A stretch of DNA of 64,000 nucleotides from Streptacidiphilus sp. ASG 303 (GTDB taxonomy: Bacteria; Actinomycetota; Actinomycetes; Streptomycetales; Streptomycetaceae): NCBI RefSeq assembly GCF_020991365.1, contig NZ_JAJLRA010000024.1, positions 1 to 64,000 of the forward strand, in the 5' to 3' direction. Both the position numbers and the translations under genes were made by a program. Each line of letters starts with the position of its first letter. The stretch's first letter is position 1. This document shows positions 32,187-35,314 of the stretch, piece by piece. Under the pieces are notes generated by a model, which worked only from the letters and a program-made list of their open reading frames with translations, did not search any database and was not told the origin of the DNA.

Positions 32187-33173
32187 ATGACCGGCTTCCC
32201 CCTCCACCGCCCCCGGCGGCTGCGCACCACCCCGGCGGTGCGCCGCCTGGTCGCCGAGACCCGGCTGCACCCGGCCCAGCTGATCCTCCCGGCCTTCGTG
32301 CGGGAGGGGATCGCCGAGCCGGTGCCGATCGCCTCCATGCCCGGCGTCGTCCAGCACACCCGCGACACGCTGCGCAAGGCGGCGGTGGAGGCGGCCGAGG
32401 CCGGCCTCGGCGGGATCATGCTCTTCGGGGTGCCCGCGGTGCAGGACGCCTGCGGCTCGGAGGGGACCAATCCCGACGGCATCCTCCAGCAGGCCATCCG
32501 CGACGTGGTGGCCGAGGTCGGCGACCGGCTGGTGGTCATGTCCGACCTGTGCCTGGACGAGTTCACCGACCACGGGCACTGCGGCGTGCTCGCCGCCGAC
32601 GGCACCGTCGACAACGACGCGACCCTGGAGCGCTACGCCGAGATGGCCGTGGTCCAGGCCGAGGCGGGCGTCCACATGGTCGGCCCCTCCGGCATGATGG
32701 ACGGCCAGGTCGGCGTGGTCCGCGAGGCCCTGGACGGCGCGGGCCACCAGGACGTCGCCGTCCTCGCCTACACCGCCAAGTACGCCTCCGGCTTCTTCGG
32801 CCCCTTCCGGGAGGCCGTCGGCTCCTCGCTCCAGGGCGACCGCAAGGGCTACCAGCAGGACCCGGCCAACGCCCGCGAGGCGCTGCGCGAGCTGGAGCTC
32901 GACCTCGCCGAGGGCGCCGACCTCGTCATGGTCAAGCCCGCCATGGCGTACCTGGACGTGCTGCGGCAGGTCGCCGACGCCTCCCCGGTGCCGGTCGCCG
33001 CGTACCAGGTCTCCGGCGAGTACGCGATGGTCGAGGCCGCGGCCGCCAACGGCTGGATCGACCGCGACCGGGTGGTCATGGAGACGCTGACCTCCATCCA
33101 CCGGGCCGGCGCCGAGCAGATCCTCACCTACTGGGCCGTGGAGGCCGCCCGCACCCTGCGGGAGCGGCTCTGA
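32187..33173 (+). CDS. hemB: Delta-aminolevulinic acid dehydratase (porphobilinogen synthase)
   Basis: A 328-residue HemB that condenses two 5-aminolevulinates into porphobilinogen. Schiff-base lysines lie in [12 protein letters not shown] and [12 protein letters not shown]. The metal-site stretch is [14 protein letters not shown]: only part of the Cys triad of zinc enzymes is present (Asp replaces one Cys), so the enzyme should be of the Mg2+/K+-dependent type. The ATG has GAAAGG upstream. A gap of 114 nt separates it from hemD; it may share the operon transcript or have its own promoter. Confidence 0.97.
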
Positions 33174-33257: not shown

Positions 33258-33665
33258 TCAGCCCCGCACCGCCCCGCCCAGGACCTGGCCCAGGACCGGC
33301 AGGTCCTTGAGCCCGCCGCCGCCGCTGAGCGGCGCGGTCAGCGGCAGGGTGCTGAGGGGGCGGGTCTGCCCGTTGGGGGTCTTCGGCTCCACCGAGACGG
33401 CGTTGGTCAGCGGGTCGGCGGAGGAGTTGGCCCAGGGGTCCAGCCGCAGCTCCGTCACCGGGCGCAGGGCGCTGCCCGCGGTGGTGCCGAGCGTGCCGAG
33501 CGCCGCCCTGGTGTCCACCGGCTGCAGCGTGGCGTCGGGGGCCTGGGCCGGCTGCGGGGCACGGGCCTCGGCGGCCATGGCGGGCGTGTGCGCGGCGAGG
33601 GTGCCGAGCACGGCCGCTCCGACGGCGGCGAGTGCGCGGCCTGCCGCGCGGGACGGGGTCTTCAT
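33258..33665 (-). CDS. Small secreted protein, unknown function
   Basis: A 135-residue protein with a clear signal peptide: RAAGRALAAVGAAVLGTLAA, cleavage expected after HTPAMAA. The mature part is Pro/Leu/Thr-rich, has no Cys, and contains repeated LGTLGTTAG and LKDLPVLGQVLGG motifs. Such small Streptomyces secreted proteins often lie beside chaplin genes. AGGAGAGGA precedes the ATG. It follows the His-rich chaplin gene on the same strand after 109 bp. I recognise no family. Confidence 0.8.
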   Translation of the reverse strand: MKTPSRAAGRALAAVGAAVLGTLAAHTPAMAAEARAPQPAQAPDATLQPVDTRAALGTLGTTAGSALRPVTELRLDPWANSSADPLTNAVSVEPKTPNGQTRPLSTLPLTAPLSGGGGLKDLPVLGQVLGGAVRG

Positions 33666-33774: not shown

Positions 33775-34167
33775 TCAGCAGTCCTTGCCGTGGCCCTTGC
33801 CGTGCTCGCCCTTGTGCTCGCCGTGGCCCTTGTCCCAGCCGCCGTGCTCGTGGCCGCGCTCGCCGCCGTACTCGTGGCCGCGCTCGCCGCCGTACTCGTG
33901 GCCGCGCTCGTGGCCGAAGCCGCCCGAGGCGTTGATGCAGGTGTTGCCGAAGGCCGGGTTCAGGATGCCCACGACGTTGATCGAGTTGCCGCAGACGTTG
34001 ACCGGGATGTGGATCGGCAGCTGCACGACGTTGCCGGAGGCCACACCGGGGGAGCCGACCGCCGCACCCTGGGCGCCGGCGCCCAGGGCGGAGGCGGAGG
34101 CGGCACCGGCGACGATCATGCCGAGGGAGGCGGCAGAGACGAGGGTGGCCTTCTTGATGTTGCGCAT
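33775..34167 (-). CDS. Chaplin with C-terminal Gly/His/Glu-rich repeat tail
   Basis: A 130-residue secreted protein. The signal peptide (MRNIKKATLVSAASLGMIVA, cleavage near SASA-LGA) is followed by one chaplin domain: GAAVGSPGVASGNVVQLPIH, then PVNVCGNSINVVGILNPAFG, then NTCIN, with the two conserved Cys. Short chaplins normally end here. This protein continues for about 48 residues of Gly/His/Glu/Lys repeats (GHEYGGER twice, then GHGEHKGEHGKGHGKDC), ending in a third Cys. The tail looks metal-binding or polyampholytic; the role is unknown. AGGAGAT precedes the ATG. It follows another chaplin gene by 65 nt and is probably cotranscribed with it. Confidence 0.92.
   Translation of the reverse strand: MRNIKKATLVSAASLGMIVAGAASASALGAGAQGAAVGSPGVASGNVVQLPIHIPVNVCGNSINVVGILNPAFGNTCINASGGFGHERGHEYGGERGHEYGGERGHEHGGWDKGHGEHKGEHGKGHGKDC
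33845..33912. repeat. 24-bp tandem repeat within the chaplin tail
   Basis: Units beginning GTACTCGTGGCCGCGCTCGC (plus strand) recur at a 24-bp period and encode the GHEYGGER octapeptides; a shorter variant precedes and follows them. Confidence 0.8.
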
Positions 34168-34232: not shown

Positions 34233-34475
34233 TCAGCCGGCGTTGACGCAGGTGTTGCCGAACGCGGGGTTCAGCAGGCCGATGACCGTGATGGTGTTGC
34301 CGCACAGGTTGACCGGGACGCTGACCGGGACCTGGATGACGTTGCCGGAGACGACGCCGGGGGAGCCGACCGCGGCACCCTCCGCGCCGCTGCTGGCCGA
34401 GGCCGCACCGGCACCGGCGGCGAGCAGGCCGGACGCCGCGACGGTGATGACGGCAGCCTTCTTGAAAGAGCGCAT
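34233..34475 (-). CDS. Short chaplin
   Basis: An 80-residue chaplin of the ChpE/ChpH type. The signal peptide (MRSFKKAAVITVAASGLLAA) is followed by a single hydrophobic chaplin domain: GAAVGSPGVVSGNVIQVPVS, PVNLCGNTITVIGLLNPAFG, NTCVNAG, with two Cys for the intramolecular disulfide. Secreted short chaplins assemble into amyloid-like fibrils that lower surface tension and coat aerial hyphae. GGAGGAAT precedes the ATG. It heads the leftward chaplin pair. Confidence 0.96.
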   Translation of the reverse strand: MRSFKKAAVITVAASGLLAAGAGAASASSGAEGAAVGSPGVVSGNVIQVPVSVPVNLCGNTITVIGLLNPAFGNTCVNAG

Positions 34476-35068
34476 GGTGGGAATTCCTCCGTGTTTCCGC
34501 CCTGCCGTGGAACCGGCGGGCGATGTGCGAAACGACAATGCTGGCCCCAGGGATGCGCGCAATGTGCGGCGATCACTCGGGCGGCCCACCCCGGGCATTT
34601 CCGCCACGGTGCAAGCCGGAGTGTTCAGACGATTACACACAGTTCCCCGAGAAGTTTTGGCACACGCCGTGATGCCCCGCATGTCGAGGCGGTCCGCTGG
34701 GATGGAGACCCGCTCCCGGGAGCGGCCCGAGGGTGCGTCAGGCGGTGCGCCGGACGTCCCGGAGGGCCGGTTCCAGCGCTGCGACCGGCGTGCTGACGGC
34801 GTTTCCGGGTGCCGTCCCGACGATGTGGCGCATGGTTTCTTCTCTCCCGAGGGGCTGGATCGAGGACCTCGTGCTGGAGAACGACCGACCCGCCGCCCGG
34901 GAACGGCCTCGGGTGCGGCGATCACCCGGATGGGGGGTGCGGGCCGGGACTTTGCTGCATGCGGGTGAATGTGCGACACCGCTCATGCCCTGCGGTCCGG
35001 AGCGTCGTTGATCAGGGGGCACGCCCAGTGCTCACGGTTCGACAGGTATGTACACAAAGGAGACATCA
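34476..35068. other. 593-bp regulatory region between divergent chaplin genes
   Basis: GC falls well below the surroundings around 34500-34680 and 35020-35068, as expected for promoters of two divergent chaplin genes. It contains GGAACTGTGTGTAATCGTCT on the minus strand (34650-34631 area) and CGTTGA at 35006-35011 on the plus strand, but I could not pair either with a convincing -35 for sigma-BldN. One possible 31-codon ORF lies at 34738-34833 (minus). Confidence 0.5.
34738..34833 (-). CDS. Possible 31-residue peptide, uncertain
   Basis: Reads MRHIVGTAPGNAVSTPVAAL then EPALRDVRRTA and stops. GGGAGAGAAG lies 5-14 nt before the ATG, which is a good ribosome binding site. No signal peptide, Cys or known domain. 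It may be a small regulator, a leader peptide or a chance ORF. Confidence 0.25.
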   Translation of the reverse strand: MRHIVGTAPGNAVSTPVAALEPALRDVRRTA

Positions 35069-35314
35069 ATGAACGCGCCCAAGAAGGTGGCCGCCGTTTC
35101 CCTCGCCGCCGCCGGCCTGATCGCCGCGGGTGCGGGTTCCGCCATGGCGAGCTCCGGGGCCGAGGGTGCCGCGATCGGCTCGCCCGGCGTCATCTCCGGC
35201 AACGCCATCCAGGTGCCGGTCAGCGTGCCGGTGAACCTGTGCGGCAACACCGTCAACCTGCTCATCGCCGCCGTCAACCCGGCCTTCGGCAACACCTGCG
35301 TCAACGCCGGCTGA
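35069..35314 (+). CDS. Short chaplin
   Basis: An 81-residue chaplin. The signal peptide starts NAPKKVAAVSLAAAGLIAAG and cleaves near AMASSG. The mature domain reads GAAIGSPGVISGNAIQVPVS, PVNLCGNTVNLLIAAVNPAF, GNTCVNAG. It is close to the chaplin at 34233-34475 but has two extra residues (LIAAV for VIGL) between the cysteines. AAAGGAGA precedes the ATG. It is a single-gene unit, divergent from the other pair and closed by a strong terminator. Confidence 0.95.
   Translation: MNAPKKVAAVSLAAAGLIAAGAGSAMASSGAEGAAIGSPGVISGNAIQVPVSVPVNLCGNTVNLLIAAVNPAFGNTCVNAG

Follow-up and report, generated by a model that had tools for sequence, protein, structure and literature searches.

A third, C-terminal cysteine in short chaplins of the hem locus of Streptacidiphilus sp. 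ASG 303 and its relatives: a coat-protein class that has probably been overlooked

The window analysed here, a stretch of 64,000 nucleotides from Streptacidiphilus sp. ASG 303 (contig NZ_JAJLRA010000024.1), carries a group of chaplin genes beside hemB (Table 1). One of them encodes a short chaplin with a long tail and lies between an untailed chaplin and a small secreted protein. The same arrangement (hemB, small secreted protein, tailed chaplin, untailed chaplin, divergent chaplin) is found in genera g1, g3 and g14, and also in genus g4, where the chaplin at this position is untailed and lacks the Cys. The small secreted protein contains no Cys, gave zero matches in Pfam or NCBIfam, and was matched in 150 of the 395 Streptomycetaceae genomes searched. 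At three loci of genus g10 that match this protein, a chaplin is absent upstream of its gene.

Table 1. Features of the chaplin locus, in window coordinates.
Feature	Position	Strand	Basis
Tailed three-Cys chaplin, 130 aa	33775..34167 (including stop codon)	-	translation; PF03777, E 2e-27
Signal peptide region, residues 1-27, cleavage site approximate	34087..34167	-	MRNIKKATLVSAASLGMIVAGAASASA read directly
Chaplin domain PF03777, residues 24-79, with Cys59 and Cys77	33931..34098	-	profile match
C-terminal tail, residues 80-130, Gly/His/Glu-rich	33778..33930	-	translation, composition
24-bp tandem repeat, 3 copies, ERGHEYGG-type octapeptides	33838..33910	-	repeat search
Codon TGC of third, C-terminal Cys (Cys130)	33778..33780	-	translation
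Adjoining short chaplin without tail, 2 Cys, 65 bp upstream	34233..34475	- (same strand)	domain match
Small secreted protein, 135 aa, next gene downstream, conserved locus partner	33258..33665	-	no Pfam/NCBIfam match; syntenic in four genera
Divergent short chaplin without tail	35069..35314	+	domain match
hemB, conserved neighbour anchoring synteny	32187..33173	+	82-94% identity in syntenic loci

Read on the minus strand from 34167 to 33775, the tailed gene translates to MRNIKK...NTCINASGGFGHERGHEYGGERGHEYGGERGHEHGGWDKGHGEHKGEHGKGHGKDC. The first-pass annotation had recognized both the gene and its tail, which are real, but had placed them without a strand. Its description of a single chaplin domain holds: PF03777 is matched once, at 95 bits against a curated cut-off of 21. 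The basic-hydrophobic-AxA N-terminus, read by eye as a putative signal peptide, aligns with those of other chaplins. A sequence search of the PDB with the window chaplin returned zero matches, and among plasmid records other chaplins were matched only in part, with no match covering 80% of the query. An AlphaFold2 model (six rows) reached a mean pLDDT of 42 and was uninformative.

The tail comprises 51 residues after NTCIN, against a claimed length of about 48, and contains 18 Gly, 9 His, 8 Glu, 4 Lys, 3 Arg and one Cys, the terminal residue. This corresponds to 35% Gly, 18% His and 16% Glu, in agreement with the high His content noted earlier. The protein ends in GKDC and has three Cys in total, so the odd third Cys previously pointed out is present, and it proves to be the part of the tail that matters. 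The 24-bp repeat is likewise real (period 24, 3.0 copies, 97% match; three copies in the window versus 0.00 expected from shuffles) but encodes only the middle ~24 residues of the tail and not the whole of it. The calculated net charge of the tail changes from -2.4 at pH 7 to +7.1 at pH 5. Neither an LAxTG motif nor a hydrophobic stretch occurs in it.

The reading frame of the tail is genuine, because GC content by codon position is coding-like (0.80/0.49/1.00 in the tail versus 0.61/0.52/0.95 in the body of the gene) and because orthologues at the same locus in two other Peterkaempfera genomes are also tailed. One of these (G001) has a tail of 60 residues ending in GGDDC, and that of Peterkaempfera griseoplana NRRL B-3064 has 49 residues and ends in DDDN, without Cys. 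The congener tails share composition more than sequence. An origin by frameshift, misassembly or a wrongly assigned strand could be suspected from the strandless coordinates and from the plus-strand translation of 33775-34167, which is meaningless and is not the gene; with a GC3 of 1.00 in frame and tailed orthologues in two other species, we reject this explanation as negligibly probable. Absence of the tail from nearly all orthologues, or a frameshift relative to them, had been named beforehand as a sign of a local artefact, and neither applies: the tail is kept at 49-60 residues in both congeners. In each Peterkaempfera genome a further tailed chaplin is present (L007, L021, L022), with a Gly/Arg/Glu-rich tail of 50-67 residues and no tail Cys; in the window genome this tail (L007) reads GGFGRGYGREGFGRGYGHGF...GGKDW.

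Tails are not unusual among short chaplins. In a survey of single-domain chaplins without a sortase signal from 19 Streptomycetaceae genomes of 17 genera, tails of at least 10 residues were found on 26 of 108 proteins, in 14 of the 19 genomes, and about 15% His or more was present in 8 of those 26 tails. Many tails in the survey are charged, of low complexity and little conserved in sequence. Of 60 short chaplins from 48 named loci, nearly all of which bear the label Streptomyces, 8 carry tails of at least 10 residues and none has Cys among its final two residues, and His-rich tails without Cys recur among Streptomyces chaplins. A unique tail was therefore rejected. Much the same applies to the view that the window chaplin fits neither the short nor the long class, which is overstated because tailed short chaplins are this common, L007 in the same genome included, and because His-rich tails recur in Streptomyces.

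The window chaplin shares with the short chaplins ChpD-H of Streptomyces coelicolor a putative signal peptide, one PF03777 domain, the two domain Cys (except in ChpE) and the absence of a sortase signal. It differs from them in its third Cys and 51-residue tail; published descriptions give ChpD, ChpF, ChpG and ChpH two Cys and some 55 residues (PMC5618249, PMC5618241). It thus has the single domain and lacks the sortase signal, as short chaplins do, but does not end just past the domain with at most two Cys. Other tailed short chaplins of Streptomycetaceae, such as those from Streptomyces and related records (L054, L061, L072, L084 and L101; L033 and L041), resemble it in having one domain, a charged His/Gly/Lys/Asp tail and no sortase signal, but have no terminal Cys and, in the loci read, lie away from the hem locus. 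Long chaplins (ChpA-C) also extend PF03777 at the C-terminus, but with two domains and a sortase signal, both absent from the window chaplin. The long chaplin of the same genome (L001, on C111) has a His-rich stalk of repeated PPVHHHPGK units ahead of its sortase signal. No paper on a tailed or three-Cys chaplin was found in the open-access literature.

Loci were gathered via the small secreted protein neighbour from 74 genomes in four genera. In the slot that the window gene occupies, Cys is the last or second-last residue in 72 of 74 chaplins (the very last in 68), whereas only 3 of 116 same-strand neighbouring chaplins of these loci carry Cys in either of these places. The split by genus is 56/56 in g14, 14/14 in g3, 2/3 in g1 and 0/1 in g4, counts that are not independent since the set is drawn mostly from g14 and includes many close relatives. 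Beyond residue 25 the Cys count is odd in all 72 Cys-chaplins, at exactly three, and is two in 113 of the 116 neighbours. Their tails range from 3 to 60 residues and vary freely in composition while the Cys is retained, preceded by D, N, P or G (D in 57); examples of endings are APDNC, KPC, HHHDDDC, PADDC and VDEDC. His is present in 38 of the 72 tails, at 15% or more in 24, with clusters in g14 such as HHHDDDC and HHEHHEPPVDEDC, and is absent from the remaining 34, including all 14 of g3 (APDNC, KPC). These sequences show a class of hem-locus chaplins defined by position, a conserved terminal Cys and a variable spacer, and the window gene belongs to it. The trait common to the class is the Cys, with His-rich repeats as local decoration.

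Other chaplins also came to light. In g3, an additional class located distally in the same cluster (L228, L229, L230, L296, L298, L303, L311-L314) has Trp/His-rich tails ending in DCD, DCN or DCC. Loci of genus g13 (L244, L245, L246) hold chaplin pairs with a CC or C(S/G) motif close to the start of the mature protein and with degenerate domain ends.

A domain tree of 86 rows on 78 columns, which is poorly resolved, did not support a single clade of Cys-chaplins: it requires 11 changes, at least 7 of them forced by well-supported branches. Within genomes, the Cys-chaplin is highly similar to its tandem neighbour (median 0.83), and in several genomes the neighbour is its closest relative. Because there is no single clade and similarity to the tandem copy is high, domains may have been shared or converted between tandem copies, with the Cys tail holding its position; alternatively, the terminal Cys may have arisen there more than once. 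Either history points to selection for the Cys, to be read with the few columns of the tree and the many close relatives in mind.

The explanation that we prefer for these patterns is that the tail offers a thiol for intermolecular disulfides that link the coat, a reading to which we assign a probability of about 0.5. The two-Cys chaplin domain would be exported and enter the amyloid coat of aerial hyphae like other short chaplins; amyloid assembly at air-water interfaces, a trait of the family, is predicted for it. Its flexible hydrophilic tail, of variable length, would bear an unpaired Cys at the last or second-last residue, and in the oxidizing extracellular space this thiol would form disulfides with a second chaplin, giving dimers, or with another Cys-bearing coat protein. 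Such bonds may staple or nucleate the coat. The Gly/His/Glu repeats of Peterkaempfera would then be an expansion of the spacer, adding hydration and, via His, some response to pH or metal, which is possible but secondary. Disulfide formation, its partner and its effect on the coat are inferred by analogy with better-known coat proteins. Disulfide-linked ChpF and ChpH dimers have been extracted from S. coelicolor walls, and prompted the proposal that intermolecular disulfides act as fibril seeds or nuclei (PMC3079736). A Cys-less ChpH fails in vivo, and reduced chaplins still fibrillate in vitro (PMC3079736, PMC5618249).

The closest parallel is BslA of Bacillus subtilis, by analogy and not homology: it too is a secreted hydrophobic coat protein, its C-terminal extension carries Cys that form disulfide oligomers, and its paralogue YweA is missing the extension (PMC7615278). 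The C-terminal CxC of BslA is needed for dimers, tetramers and water repellency (PMC7615278; also PMC5618241). BslA is an unrelated protein with two Cys in this motif and its function has been tested, whereas the window chaplin is known from its sequence alone; by analogy, it may work as a disulfide-linked coat protein of the same type. Crosslinking through the odd Cys, as the first-pass annotation had suggested, gains support from the retention of that residue in 72/74 positional counterparts against 3/116 neighbours. Since the terminal Cys is kept in this way, the hem-locus Cys-chaplins probably make up a neglected class of coat proteins capable of covalent linkage. A fuller claim falls somewhat short of even odds: that a widespread and hitherto undescribed class in at least three Streptomycetaceae genera uses a dedicated C-terminal Cys to link an amyloid coat covalently, with selection keeping the Cys and its place in the cluster despite domain exchange and rebuilding of the spacer. 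If true, chaplin coats of this kind and BslA would be a case of convergence among bacterial coats. The role of chaplin Cys is debated, and a natural class with an extra terminal Cys bears on that question. Each genome supplies an extra unpaired Cys and an untailed tandem copy, and the disulfide idea is therefore testable by a single-residue change.

The tail of P. griseoplana (DDDN), which has no Cys, and the untailed g4 chaplin speak against cross-linking. The tail could also be a passive, hydrophilic, pH-sensitive spacer that sets solubility, the charge of the fibrils or wetting at the cell-wall side, with drifting repeats and an incidental Cys. Many chaplin tails are charged, of low complexity and poorly conserved, the calculated charge of the window tail reverses between pH 7 and pH 5, and the surface activity of ChpE and ChpF is pH-dependent (PMC5618249). 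Drift would not, however, retain a terminal Cys at nearly every locus of the class while the neighbours lack it, and we regard a purely passive spacer as rather unlikely.

Metal binding (Zn, Cu or Ni via His, Asp/Glu and Cys), by which the coat would store or sense metal or stiffen with it, is suggested by the His content of the window tail, the g14 clusters, the third of the class with tails at least 15% His, and the His-rich tails that Streptomyces chaplins repeatedly carry without Cys. As the main role, metal binding, one of the options raised in the first-pass annotation, is weakened: 34 of 72 counterparts have no His, all 14 of g3 among them, whereas 72 of 72 keep the Cys. None of the neighbouring genes seen stands out as a metal gene, and His-richness by itself is no proof of physiological binding. 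With about half of the class devoid of His, a shared function in metal binding has been downgraded and is unlikely. A Cys at the extreme C-terminus after an acidic residue would also suit recognition by an enzyme, and could be an attachment point for a small thiol, a thioester or thioether, or another surface molecule, anchoring the chaplin instead of joining chaplins to each other. The secreted protein conserved next door might be involved, but the window copy lacks Cys and gave no match to an enzyme family, and a modifying enzyme was not seen in the locus; we regard attachment as highly improbable. It also counts against the preferred disulfide reading that a terminal Cys might carry a small-thiol cap, or bind metal jointly with His or Asp.

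Between the chaplin promoters lie two copies of GCGATCACYCGGRYGG (34569-34584 and 34918-34933), found in the same places in both congeners. Each copy includes TCACyCG, corresponding to one half of TCACcCgnncGgGTGA, the group I site of BldM (PMC4125116). Allowing up to two mismatches, the window has 6 matches versus 1.9 expected, and the two copies are candidate elements of developmental control.
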